Of a DNA stretch of 64,000 nt, positions 1 to 16,740 are shown piece by piece. Origin of the DNA: Streptomyces shenzhenensis (GTDB lineage: Bacteria; Actinomycetota; Actinomycetes; Streptomycetales; Streptomycetaceae). The notes under the pieces are model-generated. The model was not told the origin of the DNA. It did not search any database and saw nothing but the letters and a program-made list of their open reading frames with translations. Each line of letters begins with the position of its first letter. Within the stretch, counting starts at the first letter, position 1. Made by a program: the position numbers and the translations under genes. The stretch is taken from positions 248,001-312,000 of the forward strand of contig NZ_JAJONF010000001.1 of the NCBI RefSeq assembly GCF_021462265.1, given 5' to 3'.

Positions 1-1271
1 GCGCCCTGGGCGGAATCCGAAACGTCACTCCTGTCGGTCACATACCGGTAGATACTGAGAATCTTCCGCATCCGGTCCGTCACTTCGGCGGAGTTCTGCC
101 CGGCCACCTGGACAACGCCGCTGCAGGCGAATGAGGCGCGCGGCGGGTCCACGACATCGCCGACTGCCGCTCGCATCAGGCAGGAGATCACTCCTTCCTG
201 CGCGAGGAGTTCCTCTCGGGGTGTGATGTCGGTGACGCGTCCCGGAGCAGTGGGCAGGAGCAGGTCACCGACGGACCGGTCGAGCGTGTACCGAAGCGTC
301 GGCTTTTTGCCGACGTAGAGATCAGTGATGGCCGACATGATATCGAAGCCGTAGGACAGACCGTGGTTGAGCGGTACCTCGCATCCGCTGAGCCGGGCGG
401 CAAGCTCTCCCATGACGAACTCACCGGAATCCGTCATCCAGAACTCGGCGTGCAGGTAGCCGTTGCGGTACTCCACGCCGTCCACCAACTGCTGCGACAG
501 CCCGACCGCGTCGACCGGCTTGGGCTCGGAGGGCGCAAGCGTGATGTTGGCGTTGATCGCTCCTTCCAAGACATCGAGGATCGGCGCGGGATTGCTGGAG
601 ACATAGGCGTCGAGCACGCGGCCCTCCGAGACGAGCGCGCACAACTGGTACTCGTGGCCGGTGATGTACTCCTCCACCATCCAGCGGTGTCCGTCTCGAA
701 GGAGTCGTCCGGCGTGCGGAAGATCCGCCTCGTGGAGCTTCCATGTGCCGATGCAGGAGTCGGAGTCCACCGGTTTCAGGATCAGGGGCCAGCCATGCGT
801 GACCGCAAAACGCTCGATTGCCCCGACCGTGTCCACGAGTTCATGGGCCGCCGACCGCAGCCCCATCCGGCTGTACAGCTTCTTCATCGCGGGCTTCTCG
901 TGGACCAACAACACCTGTTCCTGAGTTAGGTGCGGCAGTCCGACGGTGGCGGCGAAGGCCTGGGCCTGCGGCTGGACGGCCTCGTTGGGGTTGCAGAAGT
1001 ACTCGGGGATCACGCCGATGCTCCTGGTCCACTCCCGGTAGCGGGCCGCCTCCTCGTCGAGAGACCGTGAGGAGTCGAGGGTGAACACGGGCCGGGCGCC
1101 CTCCGCGTCCTCGCCGGCCGGGCCGGAGCCGTGCGAGCGTGTCGAGCTGTCGCCCAGCCGGAGCAGCACCGTGGTCACGTCAGGCCGGGCCAACAAGCTC
1201 TCGTTGAAGGTCGCACGGCGGCTCTCCACCAGCAGAAGCTTGCGCTGCCCAGATTCCTTCGTACCGGTCAT
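1..1271 (-). CDS. ATP-grasp ligase, C-terminal end cut off by the window edge
   Basis: Reading from ATG at 1271 gives about 423 residues with no stop before base 1, so the 3' end lies outside the window. ATP-grasp features are visible: LILKPVDSDSCIG (nucleotide-binding strand and loop), VEEYITGHEYQLCALVSEGRV, and a metal/ATP-binding segment HAEFWMTDSGEFVMGELAARL. The family couples ATP hydrolysis to carboxylate-amine ligation through an acyl phosphate. Here it would plausibly join amino acids or cap a peptide. The start is supported by an AAGGAAAGGA ribosome-binding site just upstream. It follows the oxygenase gene by about 50 bp on the same strand and is probably co-transcribed with the NRPS. 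The substrate cannot be read from sequence. Confidence 0.85.
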   Translation of the reverse strand, partial: MTGTKESGQRKLLLVESRRATFNESLLARPDVTTVLLRLGDSSTRSHGSGPAGEDAEGARPVFTLDSSRSLDEEAARYREWTRSIGVIPEYFCNPNEAVQPQAQAFAATVGLPHLTQEQVLLVHEKPAMKKLYSRMGLRSAAHELVDTVGAIERFAVTHGWPLILKPVDSDSCIGTWKLHEADLPHAGRLLRDGHRWMVEEYITGHEYQLCALVSEGRVLDAYVSSNPAPILDVLEGAINANITLAPSEPKPVDAVGLSQQLVDGVEYRNGYLHAEFWMTDSGEFVMGELAARLSGCEVPLNHGLSYGFDIMSAITDLYVGKKPTLRYTLDRSVGDLLLPTAPGRVTDITPREELLAQEGVISCLMRAAVGDVVDPPRASFACSGVVQVAGQNSAEVTDRMRKILSIYRYVTDRSDVSDSAQG

Positions 1272-1320
1272 GGCAGGTGTCCTTTCCTTGGGGGATTGCG
1301 GGCAAGACGAGGACGGGGAC

Positions 1321-2331
1321 TCACCGGCTGTGCAGAACGCGTCGGCTTCCACCGGCTCGGCCGGGGCGTGTCCTGCGGATGTCCCGGACCACGTTGACGC
1401 GCTTGAGCCACCGCTCGGTGGGCGAGTAGGTCGCTTGGAAGGAGCGCCTGCCGTGCACGAAGGTGGTGTTGTCGATGAATGCCATATCGCCAGGCCGTAG
1501 TACGACATCCGTCAGTCGCCCGTCGAGGTGGCCGATCAGGTGCTTGAGTGCCGCTTCCGCCTCGTCGTCGCCGGGGACGGCCCGCATGAAGTCCCGGTCG
1601 GCGCGCAGGGTCGGCGCGTCCGGCGGACCTGTGAGCAGTGCGATGGGTGGTACGTCCGGTTCGGTTCTGCCGTCCAGCTCGTGAGCGGGGTCGGGGGCCA
1701 GGATGAAACGGTCCTCGCGCAGCACGCGCTCGACCGCTTCGGGCAGCTCGCCTGCTGCCAACTGGGACACCGTGGTCGCCACACCGTGTGGGTTGCGCAG
1801 GCACAGCAAGCCCACCCAGTCGGCCCGGTAGGGAGAGAAGGCGTCTTCGGTGTGCCAGCTCAGCTCTTTCGCGCTCGAAGCACTGACGTCGCTCCGCTCC
1901 ATGCCGGGCGAGGGCAGAACATCGGTGACGACGCGGCCACTCTGCTGGGCGGACCAGGCGATAGGGTCGCCGAGGACCGACCCGAGCAACAGGGCGGTGA
2001 ACGCGTCCGGGCGGCTCTTCGGGGTGTCGGCGCTGCGCCAGCTCTCCGGCGTGGGTCCAACGTCTTCGGCCACGGTGAGGTTGCTCAGCACGGTGATGCC
2101 GCGTGGTGACTCCGCGAGCCTTTCGCGATGCAGGAAGTCACGTAAATTCAAGGGGAGTTCACCGGCCAGTGCCGCCAGCGCATCGAGGGTGTCGTCGGCG
2201 TGTGGGTCCCCCAGTTCCCGGCAGGCGCGCTGGGAGAGCCGCTGTACCTTCTGGGCATCGTCCGGCGCGAGAACGTGTCGAGACAGTGAGGGTGCGTCCG
2301 GGGAAGAACCCAAAGGTGCTGTTTCAGCCAT
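1321..2331 (-). CDS. Fe(II)/2-oxoglutarate-dependent amino-acid oxygenase, VioC/AsnO (clavaminate synthase-like) family
   Basis: A 336-aa enzyme with the metal triad of the clavaminate-synthase-like fold: HTE in SWHTEDAF as the His-x-Glu pair, and the distal His in FVHGRRSF. RWLKRV follows and can supply the 2-oxoglutarate-binding arginine. The stretches WVGLLCLRNPHG and LRPGDMAFIDN resemble AsnO and VioC, which hydroxylate the beta-carbon of free Asn or Arg. ATG 2331 is chosen because GGAGGT lies 7 bases upstream; it overlaps the NRPS stop (ATGGCTGA), so the two are translationally coupled. A longer reading from 2361 is possible but has no comparable site. Likely role: hydroxylating an amino-acid building block or a carrier-bound residue of the cluster product. 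Substrate unknown. Confidence 0.85.
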   Translation of the reverse strand: MAETAPLGSSPDAPSLSRHVLAPDDAQKVQRLSQRACRELGDPHADDTLDALAALAGELPLNLRDFLHRERLAESPRGITVLSNLTVAEDVGPTPESWRSADTPKSRPDAFTALLLGSVLGDPIAWSAQQSGRVVTDVLPSPGMERSDVSASSAKELSWHTEDAFSPYRADWVGLLCLRNPHGVATTVSQLAAGELPEAVERVLREDRFILAPDPAHELDGRTEPDVPPIALLTGPPDAPTLRADRDFMRAVPGDDEAEAALKHLIGHLDGRLTDVVLRPGDMAFIDNTTFVHGRRSFQATYSPTERWLKRVNVVRDIRRTRPGRAGGSRRVLHSR

Positions 2332-5300
2332 CTGTGACCTCCATGCGTTGGTCGGGATCACCGTCGGGGAGGGCCAGCCATTGCAGCGCGGAGGCCCTGG
2401 ACGTCGGGGCGATCTCGCGTTCCCATCCGGCCGGCTCGGTGATGCTCACGGGCCACAGTGACCTCGCGCCGACCTCGTTCACGAGCACGGTGAACATCTC
2501 CAACTCGTCGTCGAACACCTCCGGCCCGGCCGAAGAGGCCGGAGAGTCCGACCACTCGGCCTGCTCGGCCTCGGCCACCGCTCCGGACTGCGGGAGATGC
2601 TCGCCGGTGCGCCGATGCCAGCGTGCGGCCCAGGCGGTGCGTGCCATGACGACTCCCGTGCCGAGCGGATCGGCGATCAGACAGTCCGCCACCACATCGC
2701 CGCTCCTCCAGGCGAGGCAGGCAGCAGGAACGTTCAGTCGCCCGTTCTGGCCTTCGGCAACTGGTGAGTTGCCCTGGTCCAGAACGTAGACGGGGACGGC
2801 GCCGCTCGTGATCAGGCGTATTCCCTCAGGGAGCAGGGGTACGAGGAGTTCGGCCCGCATCACGAGACGGTGTTCCGCCATCAGCTCCCGGGTACCCGGG
2901 GGAGACGACTCGCTATGGACCACGGGCTGCTCCGGATCGTTCAGCCCTGTCCGAAGCCGCGCTGCCCAGTCCGCCGCGAGACGTTCGCCCGTCAGGGCGG
3001 CGTACTCGGAGCGGCCGTCGTGCCACAGACGCGCCGAGATGCCGTGTCCGGCTTCACGGTCCACCACCAGCACACCGCTCCCGGCCGTGAGTTCCTCGTC
3101 GATGCCGGGCAACAGGAAGCCGGGGCCGTAGAAGACGACCGGAAGGTCCGACGGGATTTGCCGCTTGTGTTCCGGATCGCTGAACGATGCCTCTTCGGCG
3201 AGACTCCTGGACTCGGCCTGGACAAGGGTGAGGGTCAGGCGGCGCAGTCCATGGCCCGCGTCGGGAGTCACGACCCAGGCCGCCATGTCGGGACTGGTCC
3301 TCCAGAACAGGAGGTCACGCGGGCTCACCTCTCGGTTGGGTCGCACCATGACGACCGCCTCCACACCGGACAACCGGGACAGGGAGGCGACCAGCGCGGC
3401 TCTGGTGAGGTCGTGGCGTGTGACTCCCGCAGACGAGGTGAACCGGGAGAGGGCGATGTCCTCCGCATCGTTCACGACGACTTCCACGATGGCGGCGGAT
3501 ACGGCACCGGGCCCCGTCGGCGCCGTCGCCCGGCGTACCGGCGGGGTTTCGGACTGGGGTTCGTGTAGCCGTTTCCGTTTCTGTGAGCGGTTCGGGAAGA
3601 GCCGGTCGGTGATCGCGCACAGAGTCCGGGTGGCGTAGATGTCGCCGGTCGAGATGTCCGCGCTGAACCGTCCACTGAGCCAGTGGGCCAGCCGGACTGC
3701 GGCGAGCGAATGGCCGCCGAGGTCGAAGAAGTCGTCGTCAGGCCCGACCGTGTCCTTGTCGACACCGAGCGTGGCGGCCACCGCGGACCGCACCACGGTT
3801 TCGTGAAAGGTCGTAGCGGGCGCGGCCGGCCGCCGTGCGCTCATCTGCCGCTCGGCCAGGTCCGCAGCTGCATGGCGGTCGAGTTTGCCGTTGGCGTTGC
3901 GCGGCAGCCGCTCCTCGACGACGACATGGCTGGGGACCATGTACGCGGGCAGTTCCGCGCTCAGCCGCCGGAGGACGTCTTCGGCAAGGGAACGTGGCGT
4001 ACGCCGCACCGTCGGTGTGTTTGCGTAGGTGGTGGGCCAGTCCCTGGGCAGGCCGTCGCGCGGCCGGGCGACACCAGGGACCATGACGTCGGCGCCCACC
4101 GGCAGGAACCAGGCGTCGAGCGTATGCGGAGCGCTACCCCAGGTCACCAGCGTTGACCGACCGGCTGCCGCACCGATGTCGTACAGATCCTCCGGCTCCA
4201 CCTCGCAGGAGCCGGACTGACGGTGCCGGGCACTCGGTATGCCCATGATGACGCAGGTCCGGTCGGCCACGTCGGCGAGCAGGTCCGCAAGACCTCTTCC
4301 CTCCGCGCTCACAAGCTCCCACGGCCACTCAAGGGCCGTGCCAAGGCCGAGGCGGTTTGTCTTGCCGCTTTCCCCGGTGCCGATCAGAACGTCGTAGCGA
4401 TAGCGGGTGAGTTCATTGTGGTGGCGGCCTCGTTTGACGAGGACGTCGACCGCGTCGATCCGGTCGAAGACCTGAGGCAGGAGGGCGAAGTAATCTGGGT
4501 CGAGTAGGAGTTCCGTCTCCTGTGCCGCGAGCCGGGCCACGGTCTCGGACCCGTTTTGCTCGGCCAGCTCGGCGTAGAACGACGCGGCCAGCCGCCGGTC
4601 GCGCACATCACCGACGAAGATCCGCCCGCCCGGAGCCAGCAGGCCGAGGAGGCCCTTCAGCACTTGGGAGAGGTAGTCGACCGAAGGGAAGTACTGGATC
4701 ACCGAGTTGAGGACGATGGTGTCGAACGTCCGCTCCGGCAGCCCCGACAGATCGACGGCCTCACGGTGGCACAGTTGGACCCGGCTCAGCTCCGGACGCG
4801 CTGCGCAGTGCTCGGATAACTTGTCCAGGACTGCCTGGGAGAAGTCAGTTCCCCAGTATTCGTCGGCGAACGGCGCCAACTCCTCGAGGAGGAGCCCCGA
4901 GCCGACTCCGATTTCCAGGACCCGCCGGGGCTGTAGTCGGCGTATCCTCGCAACCGTGGAATCGAGCCAGAGCCGCATCTCGTCGGCGGGGATCGGCTGG
5001 TGCGTCGCGGAGGTGTTCCACCCACGGAAGCGATGGTCCTCGCGGCGCAGATCGATGCCGTGGTACAGCCCATCGTACAGTTCGTTCCACGTCGCGACGG
5101 CATCCAGTCCCTTGGCCGGTTCGACCACGGCGACCAGGCTCACCGAATCGCGGTCCTGGACCGGGCAGACAACCGCTTCGTGCACGGGGGCCAGCCCGCG
5201 CAGATGAGTCTCCACGTCCTCAAGCTCCACCCGCTGGCCCCGCACCTTCACCTGGTGGTCCCGGCGCCCCAGAAAGTGAATGAGCCCGTCCTCGTCTGTC

Positions 5301-6466
5301 ACCACCAGGTCGCCGGTCCGGTAGGTGACGGGCCCCGTGGGATCGGCAGGTGAGGGACCGAACTTCTCGGACGTCAGCTCCGGCCGATTGAGGTATCCGA
5401 CGGCGACACCCGCTCCACCGATGTAGAGTTCGCCGGCCTCTCCGGGTGCGGCCCTCCGCCCGTCGGCATGCCACACAGTCGCCTCGTAGCCGGCGAGGGG
5501 AGAACCGATGGGCAGCGACGTCTGCCCCACGGAGACCTCGTCCACCACGTGACAGGTGGCGAACGTGGTCGTCTCCGTCGGTCCGTATGCATGGACCAGC
5601 CGACCTCGGGTCACTGACCGCACCTTGCGTACGGCGTCCAGGTTGGCCTTCTCCCCGCCGAACACGAGCAGGCGCAGCGGGGAGAGGACCGCCGGTGATG
5701 TCACCGCGTGCAGATTGAGCACTGCCGTGGTCAGGAAGGCGACGGTGACATGGTGGTCGTCGATGAAGGCGCCGAGCCGTGCGGTGTCGGCCGCCAGCCG
5801 ACGGCCGGCCCCCACCAGACAGCCGCCGTTGAGCAGACAACCCCATACTTCCCAGGTGAACGCGTCGAAAGCGGGATTGGACAGCTGCCCCATCCGGTCG
5901 TCCGGGACAACGCGCAGCCGGGGGTCGGCGGTCGCCAGATTGAACACGGAGGACACCTTGGCGATAGTTCCCTTGGGGGCACCCGAACTGCCGGAGGTGT
6001 AGCACACATACAGTTCGTCGGCCTTTCCTCGCTCGGGCGCGGGATACCGTTCGTCACCTTCGCCGACGGAGAGACTGCGGACAGTCTCGAAACCGATCTG
6101 CGTGACGTCCGGGCCGAAGGTGACGCCAGGAGGCGGGCGACCGATCGTTGCAGCCGGCGGGCAGTCGGCGATCATCGCGTCCAGCCGCAGAGCGGGCAGA
6201 TCAGCGTCGAGCATGAGATAGCGGGCGCCCAGCTTGTGGACCGCCAATACCGAAACGATCAGCGCCGGCTCGGGAGCGAAGAAGATCCCGACGGTGTCCC
6301 CCGCGTGGGTCCCGGCAGTGGCGAGAAGGGAGGCCAGCCGGTCCGAGCTTGCGTCGAGGGTCTGGTAGTCCATCTCCGTTTCGGTGGATTCAGGATAATG
6401 GACGGCGATCGCGTTCGGTCGAGCCGAAACCTGTACGGAAAAAGACTGGAGTAAGGGAGACGCCAT
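2324..6466 (-). CDS. NRPS: interrupted A-(N-MT)-A domain, carrier protein, vestigial C/A segments, C-terminal MbtH-like domain
   Basis: 1380 residues. Adenylation core 10-450: A3 YTSGSSGAPKG (156-166), A5 AYGPTETT (293-300), A7 YRTGD (382-386). An N-methyltransferase is inserted at about 495-700 between A8 and A9 (VLEIGVGSGLL 516-526; NELTRYRYDV near its end). A9 LPAYMVP and A10 NGK follow at 839-861, then a carrier domain with LGGHS (phosphopantetheine Ser920). Residues about 1000-1180 resemble only the second half of a condensation domain, with no HHxxxDG motif. Residues 1195-1290 look like a contracted A7-A8 region. Residues 1316-1370 are MbtH-like (VLVNEVGARSLWP, EPAGW). My hand-read specificity code is D-A-W-F-V-G-A-T-F-K, whose TFK ending suits Val/Ile-type substrates. 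Expected role: activating, N-methylating and tethering one amino acid. No thioesterase is present. Confidence 0.9.
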   Translation of the reverse strand: MASPLLQSFSVQVSARPNAIAVHYPESTETEMDYQTLDASSDRLASLLATAGTHAGDTVGIFFAPEPALIVSVLAVHKLGARYLMLDADLPALRLDAMIADCPPAATIGRPPPGVTFGPDVTQIGFETVRSLSVGEGDERYPAPERGKADELYVCYTSGSSGAPKGTIAKVSSVFNLATADPRLRVVPDDRMGQLSNPAFDAFTWEVWGCLLNGGCLVGAGRRLAADTARLGAFIDDHHVTVAFLTTAVLNLHAVTSPAVLSPLRLLVFGGEKANLDAVRKVRSVTRGRLVHAYGPTETTTFATCHVVDEVSVGQTSLPIGSPLAGYEATVWHADGRRAAPGEAGELYIGGAGVAVGYLNRPELTSEKFGPSPADPTGPVTYRTGDLVVTDEDGLIHFLGRRDHQVKVRGQRVELEDVETHLRGLAPVHEAVVCPVQDRDSVSLVAVVEPAKGLDAVATWNELYDGLYHGIDLRREDHRFRGWNTSATHQPIPADEMRLWLDSTVARIRRLQPRRVLEIGVGSGLLLEELAPFADEYWGTDFSQAVLDKLSEHCAARPELSRVQLCHREAVDLSGLPERTFDTIVLNSVIQYFPSVDYLSQVLKGLLGLLAPGGRIFVGDVRDRRLAASFYAELAEQNGSETVARLAAQETELLLDPDYFALLPQVFDRIDAVDVLVKRGRHHNELTRYRYDVLIGTGESGKTNRLGLGTALEWPWELVSAEGRGLADLLADVADRTCVIMGIPSARHRQSGSCEVEPEDLYDIGAAAGRSTLVTWGSAPHTLDAWFLPVGADVMVPGVARPRDGLPRDWPTTYANTPTVRRTPRSLAEDVLRRLSAELPAYMVPSHVVVEERLPRNANGKLDRHAAADLAERQMSARRPAAPATTFHETVVRSAVAATLGVDKDTVGPDDDFFDLGGHSLAAVRLAHWLSGRFSADISTGDIYATRTLCAITDRLFPNRSQKRKRLHEPQSETPPVRRATAPTGPGAVSAAIVEVVVNDAEDIALSRFTSSAGVTRHDLTRAALVASLSRLSGVEAVVMVRPNREVSPRDLLFWRTSPDMAAWVVTPDAGHGLRRLTLTLVQAESRSLAEEASFSDPEHKRQIPSDLPVVFYGPGFLLPGIDEELTAGSGVLVVDREAGHGISARLWHDGRSEYAALTGERLAADWAARLRTGLNDPEQPVVHSESSPPGTRELMAEHRLVMRAELLVPLLPEGIRLITSGAVPVYVLDQGNSPVAEGQNGRLNVPAACLAWRSGDVVADCLIADPLGTGVVMARTAWAARWHRRTGEHLPQSGAVAEAEQAEWSDSPASSAGPEVFDDELEMFTVLVNEVGARSLWPVSITEPAGWEREIAPTSRASALQWLALPDGDPDQRMEVTDG

Positions 6467-6481
6467 AATGCACCGCCTCTC

Positions 6482-6670
6482 TCATTCGTCGCCCGTGGAC
6501 ACTCGGACGAGTTCCTGGTCATTGACCCAGATTGGCCGCTCCTTTGCAGCTATCAGATACCGCATCTCGTTGGTTTCGTCGTTCCAGGCCATGGCCAGGA
6601 CCGCATAATCAGTCCGACCGCCCATGGATACCGCCAGTTTCCGGTTGACGGTCGCGAAGTGAAAGGGCAT
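6482..6670 (-). CDS. 62-residue conserved-looking small protein of unknown function inside the NRPS operon
   Basis: Starts MPFHFATVNRK and ends QELVRVSTGDE. It has no signal peptide, no membrane helix and no cysteine; alternating hydrophobic stretches (YAVLAMAWND, EMRYLIAAKERP) suggest a small beta-rich fold. A GAGGA ribosome-binding site lies 8 bases before the ATG, and the gene sits snugly between the methyltransferase (10 bp) and the NRPS (15 bp), which argues that it is real. I do not recognise the family. It is not an MbtH protein, since the SLWP and PAGW signatures are absent and that domain is fused to the NRPS here. It might be a partner or chaperone of a neighbouring enzyme, but nothing in the sequence shows this. 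Confidence 0.6.
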   Translation of the reverse strand: MPFHFATVNRKLAVSMGGRTDYAVLAMAWNDETNEMRYLIAAKERPIWVNDQELVRVSTGDE

Positions 6671-6680
6671 GATCCGGTCC

Positions 6681-7307
6681 TCACTTAATGAAGCACTGGA
6701 TGTACGCGGTACCAGAGGTTCCCTCTGTGTAACTCGTCGTCTGGTACGCCGTGAAGGGATGTGGTTCGACGAGGATGGTGCGGAAGCGAGGGGCGAATCG
6801 TGGCCACAGTTCGTTGGTCGTGGAGAAGAATGGAACGAATGCGGCGCCCGGTCGCATAATACGGATCATCTGCCCGATGACATTCGACCACCAAGGTTCA
6901 TCGTCTCGAATTTCTTTGGGAAGCCAAGGGTCGAACATAATTCCGTCGACTGACTCGTCGGGCAACTGCTCAATATAGTCGAAGAAATCATCCTGCACGA
7001 TGTCGAGGGCGGCCGGCGGTGAGGGATGCATTTTCCGGAACTCATCGATAACCGGCTGGTAACGCTCCACCACGGTATGCCGCGTCGTGTTCTGTGCGCC
7101 CGCGATGGCGAGTGCTGACAGGCCCAGGCCTAGACCGCACTCCAGAAATTCACCACCTTGCCTGACGACGAGTTCGCCACTCCGGATCATGAGCGGCTTT
7201 TCCCATTCCTGCATGGCCTGCGCCCCGTCGATGTAGAGCGTGCGCTGACCCATGGCCGTATTGGTGAAGAAGATGTCCGGGTCATCCTGCTGGAGTGCAT
7301 GACGCAT
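6681..7307 (-). CDS. SAM-dependent methyltransferase resembling guanidinoacetate/arginine N-methyltransferases
   Basis: 208 residues, a class I methyltransferase. Motif I is FLECGLGLGLSAL (54-66); the acidic ribose-binding residue follows in TVVERY; the post-I segment is VDGIMFDPW. The N-terminal motif MQEWEKPLM (32-40) matches the conserved entry motif of guanidinoacetate N-methyltransferase (GAMT) and fungal arginine methyltransferases (ERWETPYM-like), as does the FDG-I-YD-like segment. Those enzymes methylate guanidino nitrogens. With an amino-acid oxygenase in the operon, a guanidino substrate such as arginine or a derivative is plausible but unproved. ATG 7307 has an AGGAAAGGT site upstream. 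It is the second gene of the minus-strand operon after the MFS exporter, about 50 bp away. Confidence 0.75.
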   Translation of the reverse strand: MRHALQQDDPDIFFTNTAMGQRTLYIDGAQAMQEWEKPLMIRSGELVVRQGGEFLECGLGLGLSALAIAGAQNTTRHTVVERYQPVIDEFRKMHPSPPAALDIVQDDFFDYIEQLPDESVDGIMFDPWLPKEIRDDEPWWSNVIGQMIRIMRPGAAFVPFFSTTNELWPRFAPRFRTILVEPHPFTAYQTTSYTEGTSGTAYIQCFIK

Positions 7308-7356
7308 TGCTTCTTACCTTTCCTGGGAGAATCAGAGTGACGTGCAGGCCCTCTAA

Positions 7357-8601
7357 CTATTCAGTGGGCTTGGTTCTCTCACCGAGGGACGGCTTCGAAA
7401 GCGGCACCAGCCTGCTCGCGGCGACCCCGAGTGCGGCGACCCCACCGATGATCAGGAAGGCCACATGTGGCCCGGTCGAGCCGATCAGTACCCCGCTCAG
7501 GGCGGCACCCATGGCCGTGCCTCCGTTGCAAGCGACGCCGGCCAGGATGGCCGCGTGGGTCTTGCCCGTGTGTCCTTCGGCCGCATGGTCCGCCATCAGG
7601 AATCCGGTCATCACGGCGGGCCCGACCGCGAGGCCGGCGATGACGAGAAGGGGAAACACGGTAAGCAGGTCGACCGCGGCCGCCAACAAAGCCGTACCCA
7701 GCGCGGCGGACGCCGAGAGCCACATCATCCACCGGTGCAGCGGCGCGCGACCCGCGATCCTGCTGTAGACGAAGGCCCCACAGGCGCTTGCGGCGGAGAG
7801 CACCGCCAGCAACGGACCCGCCAGAGCCACCCGGTCGAACTCCTCGGACAGGGCCGGAACCCCGACCTCGATCATCCCCACGGTCAACCCGACGGCCACC
7901 AGTGCCAAAAACACCGACGCGGTGCTGCGCACCACGGACCGCATGGACGCATGTTCTTTGGACGTGTCATTTGAGACTCGTGCGGACGGAGCACCGACCG
8001 CCATGGTCACCGCGCCCACCACGCACAGCCCGCTGCTGATCAGCAGCGACACCTGTGTTCCCGCCACGGCCACGGTTGCGCCCACCAGCAGTGGGCCCAC
8101 CATCAGCGTCATTTCCTCGCAGACGGAGTCAACACCGAAAGCCTTCGGACGAGCGGACTCGGGCAGAGCGTGAGACCAGCCGACACGCATGAGCGCGCCG
8201 AACGGGGGGCTAGCCGCGCCGATCACCGCGGTGAAGGCGAGAATCTGCCAGGAAGGCCATTCCCGGGTAACGGCGACGGTCAGCGCGACCAGACTCAGAG
8301 CTTCGACCAACGACAGAATGAGCAGCGTGAGACGGTGCCCCCAGCGGACCGTGAACCAACTTCGGACAGGGCCAGCGGCGACTGAAAAAATGGCGAATGT
8401 ACCCGTGGCGCTGCCCGCCAGCGTGAAGGAGCCAGTGACGTCCTGAACGAGCAGCACTATCCCGACCGAAATCATCGCCAAGGCGGATCGACCGACTGCC
8501 GACCCGATGAAGAGTTCACGGATTGGTGACGTGCCGATCAGTCCACGTAAATTGACGTCAGATTTTTCCCAACCGTTCTCGGTTACGCCGTTGATTCCCA
8601 A
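7357..8601 (-). CDS. MFS transporter, probable exporter of the cluster product
   Basis: 414 residues with about twelve hydrophobic segments spread evenly from residue 26 onward. WGHRLTLLILS after the second or third segment matches the loop 2-3 position of MFS porters. A charged stretch around residues 208-222 marks the central cytoplasmic loop between the six-helix halves. It is the first gene of the minus-strand cluster and faces the ABC-F pseudogene across about 235 bp. First position in a biosynthetic operon suggests efflux and self-protection. The substrate is inferred from context only. Confidence 0.8.
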   Translation of the reverse strand: MGINGVTENGWEKSDVNLRGLIGTSPIRELFIGSAVGRSALAMISVGIVLLVQDVTGSFTLAGSATGTFAIFSVAAGPVRSWFTVRWGHRLTLLILSLVEALSLVALTVAVTREWPSWQILAFTAVIGAASPPFGALMRVGWSHALPESARPKAFGVDSVCEEMTLMVGPLLVGATVAVAGTQVSLLISSGLCVVGAVTMAVGAPSARVSNDTSKEHASMRSVVRSTASVFLALVAVGLTVGMIEVGVPALSEEFDRVALAGPLLAVLSAASACGAFVYSRIAGRAPLHRWMMWLSASAALGTALLAAAVDLLTVFPLLVIAGLAVGPAVMTGFLMADHAAEGHTGKTHAAILAGVACNGGTAMGAALSGVLIGSTGPHVAFLIIGGVAALGVAASRLVPLSKPSLGERTKPTE

Positions 8602-8835: not shown

Positions 8836-9230
8836 ATGGGACATATCGAGGCCTCGCACATCGACTACTTCCTTACAGACGTCGGCTGTTGTTGAACGAC
8901 GTATCGTTCAAGGTCGGCGAGGGTACCGTGGTCGCCTTGGTGGGGCCGAGCGGGGCCGGGAAGACCACGTTATTGAAGCTGCTCTCGGGTCAGGCCAGAC
9001 CGCATGGCGGGACCGTGACGGTCAGTGGAAGCCGCGCAGTGATGCCGCAGTTCGTCGTGGCCTCGGAAGGCGGCAGGACTGTCCGAGATCTTCTGCTCGC
9101 TACCGCTCGGCCGGCGATCCGCGCAGCGGCACAGGCCGTTGACGTCGCTGAAAAAACGCCGTCGCCGAGCAGGGCGGCGAAGACGCACAGATGAGCTATG
9201 CCCAGGCCCTCAGTGACTTGGTCGTGATTG
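8836..9230 (+). pseudogene. ABC-F family ATPase remnant (antibiotic-resistance type), truncated and frameshifted
   Basis: ATG 8836 opens MGHIEASHIDYFL, a typical ABC-F N terminus, and hits a stop after 19 codons. Shifting frame near 8881 continues as RRLLLNDVSFKVGEG, Walker A GPSGAGKTT, then VRDLLLATARPAIRAAA. A second shift at an A-run near 9152 restores EDAQMSYAQALSD, again matching ABC-F proteins. After about 9230 the similarity ends, so the signature motif, Walker B, linker and second ATPase domain are missing. Intact ABC-F proteins protect ribosomes from antibiotics or act in translation, so this may be a dead self-resistance gene of the neighbouring cluster. An RNA-level rescue of two shifts plus a truncation is implausible. 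Confidence 0.8.
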
Positions 9231-15894: not shown

Positions 15895-16258
15895 GCGGCG
15901 CCGTCGTGGCTGGTTGTGCCCCTGCGGCGGTGACGGCGGGTCGGCTGTCCGGTGCGGCGTCGTGGCTGGTTGTGCCCCTGCGGCGGTGACGGCGGGTCGG
16001 ATACGGCCTCGTGCCTCTTCGGGGGCGCTGGTGTGCCTGCGTGGTTCGCGGATAGTGCGGTGTGGGGCTGTCGGCTGTCCGGTGCGGCGTCGTGGCTGGT
16101 TGTGCCCCTGCGGCGGTGACGGCGGGTCGGATACGGCCTCGTGCCTCTTCGGGGGCGCTGGTGTGCCTGCGTGGTTCGCGGATAGTGCGGTGCTGGGCTG
16201 TCGGCCGTGCGCTGCGGCGTCGTGGCTGGTTGTGCCCACGCGGCGGCGGCCGCACAGC
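15895..16258. repeat. 130-bp tandem repeat built around a streptomycete intergenic palindromic element
   Basis: The core CGTCGTGGCTGGTTGTGCCC recurs at about 15901, 15958, 16088 and 16218. The last two intervals are exactly 130 bp and the intervening text is nearly identical, including GTGCCTGCGTGGTTCGCGG. The fourth copy continues as CACGCGGCGG, matching elements at 47222 and 54772. The whole 15862-16275 gap between a plus-strand gene and a converging minus-strand gene is this array and contains no credible gene. Confidence 0.8.
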
Positions 16259-16275
16259 CTCGCCCTGCGGGTCGC

Positions 16276-16740
16276 TCAGCGTTCGCGTACGTACTCGGTC
16301 GTCAGCACCAGGTCCTTCGCCGGGCCGCCCACCCGCCAGACCGTGCGCCAGTGGTCGGCGTCCCGGACGGTGAACTCGCCGCGGTAGAGGTCGGCCGCGC
16401 AGGGATGGTCGGCGACGTACCGCCCCGACGTGAGGTCCAGGTCGTGGAAGGGGCGGCCGTCGGCGAACCGGACGTCCGCCGTTCCGGGCCGCGCGCCGGG
16501 CAGGAAGCGCAGGGTCCGCTCGGCGGGCCGGGCCGCGCCCTGCCAGGTGAAGGTCCCCGATTCCTCGTGCAGCGGGCCGCCGCCGTCCAGCGGCCGGAAC
16601 ACGGTGGCACCCTCGAAGCGGCCCTCGGCCCGGCTCGCCACATCCCGCACGGTCCGGTCCACTCTCCACCGTCCGCCGAGATAGGCCAGCACATCGGGTA
16701 CCGGCCGGAAGTCGCCCACGATCACCGCTTCTCCGGCCAC
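16276..16740 (-). CDS. DUF6314 family protein
   Basis: 154 residues with no signal or membrane segment. The pattern YLGGRWRVDRTVRDVASRAEG at the start, then HEESGTFTWQG, FHDLDLTSGRYVADHPCAADLY and WRVGGPAKDLVLTTEYVR, is that of the DUF6314 family, a lipocalin-like beta-barrel predicted to bind a small molecule. The ATG at 16740 overlaps the end of a small upstream membrane-protein gene by 19 bp, implying translational coupling. Function unknown. Confidence 0.75.
   Translation of the reverse strand: MAGEAVIVGDFRPVPDVLAYLGGRWRVDRTVRDVASRAEGRFEGATVFRPLDGGGPLHEESGTFTWQGAARPAERTLRFLPGARPGTADVRFADGRPFHDLDLTSGRYVADHPCAADLYRGEFTVRDADHWRTVWRVGGPAKDLVLTTEYVRER

Follow-up and report, generated by a model that had tools for sequence, protein, structure and literature searches.

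Blasticidin S, a rice fungicide, comes from the closest described system to the locus considered here, and BlsK, encoded in its cluster (blsD-M), is reportedly a [3Fe-4S], tRNA-dependent aminoacyltransferase. The stretch of DNA analysed (the window) comprises 64,000 nucleotides of the 10.66 Mb genome of the soil bacterium Streptomyces shenzhenensis (G000:C1:248001-312000), and an operon spanning its left edge encodes relatives of BlsI, BlsK and BlsL together with a nonribosomal peptide synthetase (NRPS) and an arginine-type oxygenase. With a probability of about 0.55, the product of this operon is a small peptide without a nucleoside, built around a modified arginine by the late steps of blasticidin S biosynthesis. 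According to PMC5572114, BlsL methylates the delta-N of arginine efficiently only with leucine on the amine; PMC4664946 reports that the leucyl form of blasticidin is about 20-fold less active and that the leucyl group is removed by the standalone aminopeptidase PepN. No described cluster matching the operon was found in the literature searched, with MIBiG and most subscription papers out of reach.

The operon consists of eight co-directional genes on the minus strand (G000:C1:244874-256601, window -3126 to 8601), two of which, encoding a protein of 612 amino acids (aa) and an M20 amidohydrolase, lie to the left of window base 1. In order of transcription, the genes are:

7357..8601, minus strand: MFS exporter, first gene (Pfam MFS_1, 93.9 bits); TTG start at 8601, the true start may be further inside
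6681..7307, minus strand: BlsL-like guanidine N-methyltransferase dependent on S-adenosylmethionine (SAM), 208 aa (51% identity to BlsL; PDB 3orh, guanidinoacetate methyltransferase; SAM motif)
6482..6670, minus strand: 62-aa orphan protein, an open reading frame (ORF) without Pfam or NCBIfam match
2324..6466, minus strand: NRPS, 1380 aa (adenylation (A) domain with embedded N-methyltransferase, carrier, orphan remnant, MbtH)
1321..2331, minus strand: VioC/GntD-type Fe(II)/2-oxoglutarate oxygenase, 336 aa (alignment with VioC from PDB)
1..1271, continuing to window -6 (L010:7994-9271), minus strand: BlsI-like ATP-grasp ligase, 425 aa (LAL_C2; similarity to BlsI)
window -1841..-3, minus strand: 612-aa BlsK-like protein (similarity to BlsK)
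window -3126..-1843, minus strand: M20 amidohydrolase, following the 612-aa gene

Adjacent genes either share 4 or 8 bases or are separated by 1 to 49 bases, a spacing so tight that the eight are presumably transcribed together; as a similar core also recurs in other species, grouping by chance is not a concern. The G+C content of the operon is 66.1%, versus 71.5% for window 20-64 kb. An earlier, sequence-only reading of the window had seen five or six co-oriented genes here, and the six that it named all lie on the minus strand at window 1-8601, although the operon also includes the two genes left of the window. That reading had allowed that the left flank might reveal a fragment of a large NRPS locus; this was rejected, since there is no NRPS among the predicted ORFs of the left flank, which contains the 612-aa protein and the M20 gene instead. 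Because of these two genes, the interpretation shifts: the suggested modified arginine peptide joined by ATP-grasp chemistry retains its basis in the guanidine-type families and the ligase type, but the "small NRPS cluster" gives way to a proposed capping and methylation of the blasticidin type that act on an arginine peptide without a nucleoside.

Blasticidin-type enzymes, oxygenase and NRPS of the operon

PMC5572114 prints the primers used for cloning blsL. Of 40 loci, only L016 and L027, which represent one place in genome G388, contain exact matches to both primers, and these enclose a gene for a 213-aa protein. In L027, ten genes are ordered M-L-K-J-I-H-G-F-E-D, where the letters other than L are assigned from gene order and from the published blasticidin cluster; given the primer anchor and this order, the large protein beside BlsL was taken as BlsK.

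The window methyltransferase is 51% identical to BlsL over 189 aa, carries the SAM motif E-x-GLGLGL at residue 56 and finds guanidinoacetate methyltransferase (3orh, E 2e-7) as its best PDB match; the similarity over the whole domain, together with the SAM motif, places it in the BlsL family and bears out the earlier assignment as a guanidinoacetate methyltransferase-like enzyme. The ATP-grasp ligase predicted from the sequence was likewise confirmed as one of the L-amino-acid-ligase type, with a LAL_C2 domain (Pfam, 42 bits), a PDB match to L-amino acid ligase 4wd3 (E 9e-18) and 45% identity over 350 columns to the ligase at the BlsI position; its gene ends at window -6. The 612-aa protein is 33% identical to BlsK over 623 columns (240 bits), and this full-length similarity is accompanied by the cysteine set invariant in the BlsK family. 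The presence of BlsK and BlsL relatives in one operon, together with the preference of BlsL for an acylated substrate, suggests the same cap-then-methylate order here.

A tblastn search with the ten proteins D-M over the left-flanking locus L009 and the window (84 kb) matched relatives of BlsI, BlsK and BlsL alone; there was no match for BlsD, E, F, G, H, J or M, and the operon therefore has neither a cytosine nucleoside pathway nor a beta-arginine mutase. Since the BlsD, E, F, G, H and M set characteristic of a blasticidin-type peptidyl nucleoside is absent, a nucleoside cluster was rejected. The MFS exporter is weakly similar to the MFS protein at the BlsJ position by blastp (27%, 65 bits); tblastn with BlsJ over the same 84 kb gave nothing at 1e-3.

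The oxygenase was assigned to the TauD family, and its nearest solved relatives are VioC entries of the PDB (E 4e-74). The best NCBIfam models are GntD (NF041363, 318 bits, cut-off 345) and VioC (TIGR03946, 290 bits, cut-off 418.6), neither of which reaches its cut-off. The iron ligands HxE...H correspond to H160, E162 and H293, and Asp245 and Asp247 align with D268 and D270 of VioC, which contact the guanidine. Both the iron site and the Asp pair thus have the VioC form, in agreement with the sequence-only reading; the pair is kept in nine of ten other aligned oxygenases (L046 and L026 being one sequence) and lost in L037. That locus (genome G193, 2517-7166), which also has a BlsK relative, encodes an A-carrier NRPS protein that ends in a BlsL-like methyltransferase region; its oxygenase lacks the second of the two guanidine Asp residues, and two short ORFs were called for its aminotransferase.

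The A, methyltransferase and carrier domains noticed earlier in the NRPS were recovered, but a C-terminal MbtH domain (Pfam, 43 bits) had been missed. The motifs are located at positions 157 (A3), 516 (SAM), 859 (A10, NGK) and 912 (carrier), followed by a remnant at about 965-1310 and MbtH at 1317-1364; the single A domain keeps A3, A5, A8 and A10, with the methyltransferase between A8 and A10, and the carrier retains its Ser. The claim that no condensation-competent module is present holds, as the HHxxxDG motif is absent from all ten NRPS proteins of this type, the window protein included, each of which has a single A3 motif; the Pfam scan gave no Condensation and no thioesterase match in the window NRPS, so that the active condensation and release domains of a canonical assembly line are missing. 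The window protein (1380 aa) is shorter than the nine alignable sister NRPS proteins (1750-1886 aa; alignment viewed in part). In the sisters of L024 and L048, Pfam finds weak Condensation and further AMP-binding matches after the carrier and a C-terminal MbtH; the corresponding stretch of about 350 aa in the window protein has no Pfam match. Because HHxxxDG and a second A3 motif are missing there, this stretch is probably not catalytic in the nine sisters either. A query with the remnant plus MbtH had matches in 268 of 392 genus genomes, and the matches listed outside the window's own genome mainly cover the MbtH part. The A-domain pocket, read by eye, is D-A-W-F-V-G-A-T-F (D-A-F-F-L-G-V-T-F in L023) and has no second acidic residue; by known specificity codes, both pockets look aliphatic, a weak indication that an aliphatic amino acid may be taken.

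The M20 enzyme has its best matches among carbamoylases, amidohydrolases and a deacylase, not aminopeptidases. The 62-aa protein matches no Pfam or NCBIfam model and occurs in one of 392 genus genomes, its own; tblastn at E 0.1 did not detect it in any of 84 other loci.

Predicted fold of the BlsK-like protein

The 612-aa protein belongs to no Pfam or NCBIfam family and has no PDB sequence match up to E 10. An alignment of BlsK relatives (48 of 49 selected sequences, the partial L078 being left out; L037 was left out of a further alignment, A4) contains eight cysteines invariant in all 48 sequences: Cys219, 235, 241, 264, 470, 472, 496 and 499. Cys219, Cys235 and Cys241 are candidate Fe-S ligands, and Cys470, Cys472, Cys496 and Cys499 may form a metal site. 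All 48 relatives also have a His at 203 or 205, in the form HGNG in 11 and xGHG in 37. The 11 HGNG members, which lie on one side of a 98/87 branch in the tree, are the window protein, the proteins of nine loci with an A-methyltransferase-A (A-MT-A) NRPS beside BlsK, and that of L045, where the contig is too short to show an NRPS; the end branch of the window protein is 3.2 long, and its placement is therefore unsure.

The AlphaFold2 model based on the 48 relatives has a pLDDT of 86.7 and a pTM of 0.86, and VIA-align superimposed its residues about 70-343 onto gingipains (Z 15.6) and TPR-CHAT proteases (Z 10.7-12.3). When the catalytic part was modelled alone (47 sequences, pLDDT 80.8), the same search gave gingipains at Z 15.3-15.6 over 230-233 residues with a root-mean-square deviation (rmsd) of 3.1-3.2 (gingipain K, 4rbm: Z 15.6, 232 residues, rmsd 3.1), followed by CHAT and separase at 8.2-11.9 and by legumain and caspase-3 at about 6; the matches also include the anti-sigma factor DdvA (8.5-8.8) and a chain from the sperm axoneme (7.4). 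Foldseek placed 4rbm first for the catalytic part, weakly (E 0.03, TMq 0.47), followed by separase and CHAT; since none of its matches reaches E 0.001, the clan CD case is founded mainly on VIA. Among the matches listed by Foldseek for the full-length model were Ig-like and other proteins and no clan CD entry. The catalytic part of the BlsK family is thus tentatively predicted to have the clan CD (gingipain/CHAT) protease fold.

A more far-reaching suggestion, put forward tentatively and closer to doubtful than to probable, is that the BlsK type arose from clan CD cysteine proteases that became amide-forming transferases dependent on aminoacyl-tRNA; the protease Cys would accept the aminoacyl group of the tRNA, forming an acyl-enzyme, and hand it on to an amine. 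The diverged, shifted-His member in the window operon would then serve a non-nucleoside, guanidine-methylated hydroxyarginine peptide, and tRNA-fed capping would be a portable module across unrelated antibiotic types. Judged by title, no match listed in the literature search proposes a clan CD fold for tRNA-dependent aminoacyltransferases. The predicted fold offers a testable mechanism, centred on Cys264, for a transferase family that has no Pfam or NCBIfam model. Assignment of the 612-aa protein to the AcmF type was rejected, AcmF being alanyl-tRNA-synthetase-like and BlsK going unmentioned in the accessible part of PMC12945691.

Sister loci and genomic setting

Relatives of the 612-aa protein occur in 20 of 392 genus genomes, the window's own included, and neighbourhoods were taken for 18 of the 19 others (G008 was left out). 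In nine of these 18 (L027-L029 and L031-L036, a set that includes L027, the reference itself), BlsI (67-100% identity), BlsK (69-100%) and BlsL (80-100%) stand side by side. A profile scan of 84,980 species genomes found BlsK relatives in 47 loci, their best segments being 25-36% identical to the window protein; the scan uses short patterns and can miss some relatives, and it may not include records of the window's own genome. By their neighbours, 25 are of the blasticidin type and two more are cut by contig ends; six have an NRPS-methyltransferase and an oxygenase, and three the NRPS-methyltransferase without an oxygenase; one shows the ligase alone on a short contig, nine are other (including L049, with BlsJ- and BlsM-like genes) and one (L087) has no BlsK call. 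Six of the 47 loci therefore share the core, which consists of NRPS-methyltransferase, oxygenase, ligase and BlsK relative, and the 612-aa protein was rejected as an unrelated passenger, since it recurs beside ligase, oxygenase and NRPS. BlsL and oxygenase together above 100 bits occur in none of the 47, and a BlsL-like protein was found in 6/150 relatives, the window's own included, the other five being 48-51% identical. The gene combination of the window is a single case in the collections searched (the genus genomes and the 84,980-species scan).

The sister family (NRPS with A-MT-A, carrier, condensation-like (C*) and adenylation-like (A*) remnants and MbtH; oxygenase; BlsI-like ligase; BlsK relative) comprises L041, L042, L043, L046, L047 and L077, as well as L023, L024 and L026, the last being the L046 contig. 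The gene after the BlsK relative encodes 417-438 aa, an MFS protein in L024. Two sister loci, L024:103-7846 (minus strand) and L047:13043-21743 (plus strand), run into further NRPS genes, in L024 with a luciferase-like monooxygenase match within the A domain.

Other settings of BlsK relatives were also observed. In L038, L075, L080, L085 and L086, proteins of 633-667 aa stand beside an aminotransferase-like protein (by eye) with no window-type NRPS, L038 also having a sulfate-adenylyltransferase-like protein (by eye); in L030, L051 and L073, the neighbours of the BlsK relative are a stand-alone adenylation protein and a protein resembling a carrier.

Broken pieces of an ABC exporter were recognised by eye in both flanks of the operon: on the right, a fragment with Walker A (window 8889-9194, plus strand), and on the left, membrane and ATPase-tail fragments (L009 about 15909-16680, plus strand; window about -4091..-3320). 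This would fit insertion of the operon into or next to an exporter that later decayed.

Proposed pathway, rival explanations and known systems

Gene content, protein families, conserved catalytic residues and the absence of nucleoside genes are observed, and the best reading of them is that the product may be an aminoacyl-capped, guanidine-methylated hydroxyarginine peptide formed by a non-nucleoside pathway. The VioC-type oxygenase would hydroxylate free arginine, most likely at the beta carbon, and the NRPS, helped by its own MbtH, would load one aliphatic amino acid and N-methylate it on the carrier without any condensation. The BlsI-like ligase would then activate the carboxylate of arginine (or of the N-methyl amino acid) and form the amide bond, and the BlsK-like enzyme would move an aminoacyl group from a charged tRNA onto the arginine amine, a cap that would mask the compound. 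The BlsL-like enzyme would methylate the guanidine of the capped intermediate, the MFS protein would export it, and the M20 amidohydrolase would remove the cap (or cleave another amide). In this scheme, every substrate is inferred, as are the sequence of the reactions, the way in which the carrier passes its load to the ligase and the nature of the cap.

Several points weigh against such a pathway. An ATP-grasp enzyme needs a free carboxylate, whereas the carrier holds an N-methylaminoacyl thioester, which leaves a gap at the hand-over, and, as the earlier reading had claimed, Pfam finds no thioesterase domain in any of the eight genes. As no BlsL match exceeds 100 bits in any of the six sister loci, guanidine methylation is outside the core that they share; for M20, this level is exceeded in one of the 47 loci, L044, where the match is 34% identical and lies on the other strand than BlsK. 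The BlsK relative of the window is highly divergent (33%, branch 3.2), so its donor and acceptor may differ, and the A-domain specificity was read by eye.

Some of these observations also bear on other explanations. The residue added from aminoacyl-tRNA might be kept in the final short peptide instead of serving as a temporary cap, an idea which we find doubtful: the best matches of the M20 enzyme leave the operon with no clear cap remover, and the BlsK family elsewhere sits among quite different genes, but the pairing of BlsK and BlsL mirrors the blasticidin logic, and, with leucyl removal by the standalone PepN (PMC4664946), a missing in-cluster aminopeptidase says little. It is unlikely that the oxygenase uses, in place of free arginine, a different guanidino acid (for example enduracididine) or a substrate that is tethered or already ligated; GntD, an L-enduracididine hydroxylase, does outscore VioC, both below their cut-offs, but no operon gene is annotated as enduracididine-forming, and the Asp pair, which suits several guanidino acids, is not decisive.

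Decay of the operon, with the product no longer made, appears quite improbable, as all eight genes are open and tightly spaced and motifs are kept in the oxygenase, both methyltransferases, the A domain, the carrier and the BlsK relative. The short NRPS and its carrier-MbtH stretch without a Pfam match would fit decay, as would the exporter pieces in the flanks and the long branch of the BlsK relative; however, the same stretch in the nine sisters already lacks HHxxxDG and the second A3 motif.

In this operon, relatives of the blasticidin capping and guanidine-methylation enzymes occur away from nucleosides, joined with an NRPS and an arginine-type oxygenase, and the core in 6/47 loci suggests that capped arginine peptides form an as yet unexplored family. 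The sister family has the same core, order from NRPS to BlsK and HGNG/NCFSG form of BlsK, but differs in its longer NRPS with recognisable C* and A* remnants and lacks the 62-aa protein, any M20 match and any BlsL-like match above 100 bits. The window oxygenase has its family, HxE...H iron site and guanidine Asp pair in common with VioC, CmnC and GntD, and differs from VioC and GntD in scoring below both equivalog cut-offs and in its gene setting. The catalytic part of the BlsK-like protein may, by prediction, share its fold with the clan CD cysteine proteases (gingipains, CHAT, separase), whereas the BlsK family has extra invariant cysteines, the role reported for BlsK is transfer, not cleavage, and the window subfamily has its His two residues earlier (HGNG for GHG). 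Unlike the blasticidin S cluster of L027, the window operon has an NRPS, an arginine-type oxygenase and an M20 hydrolase; both bring BlsI-, BlsK- and BlsL-type enzymes together in one operon, and N-methylation of the guanidine after aminoacyl capping is likely their shared logic.

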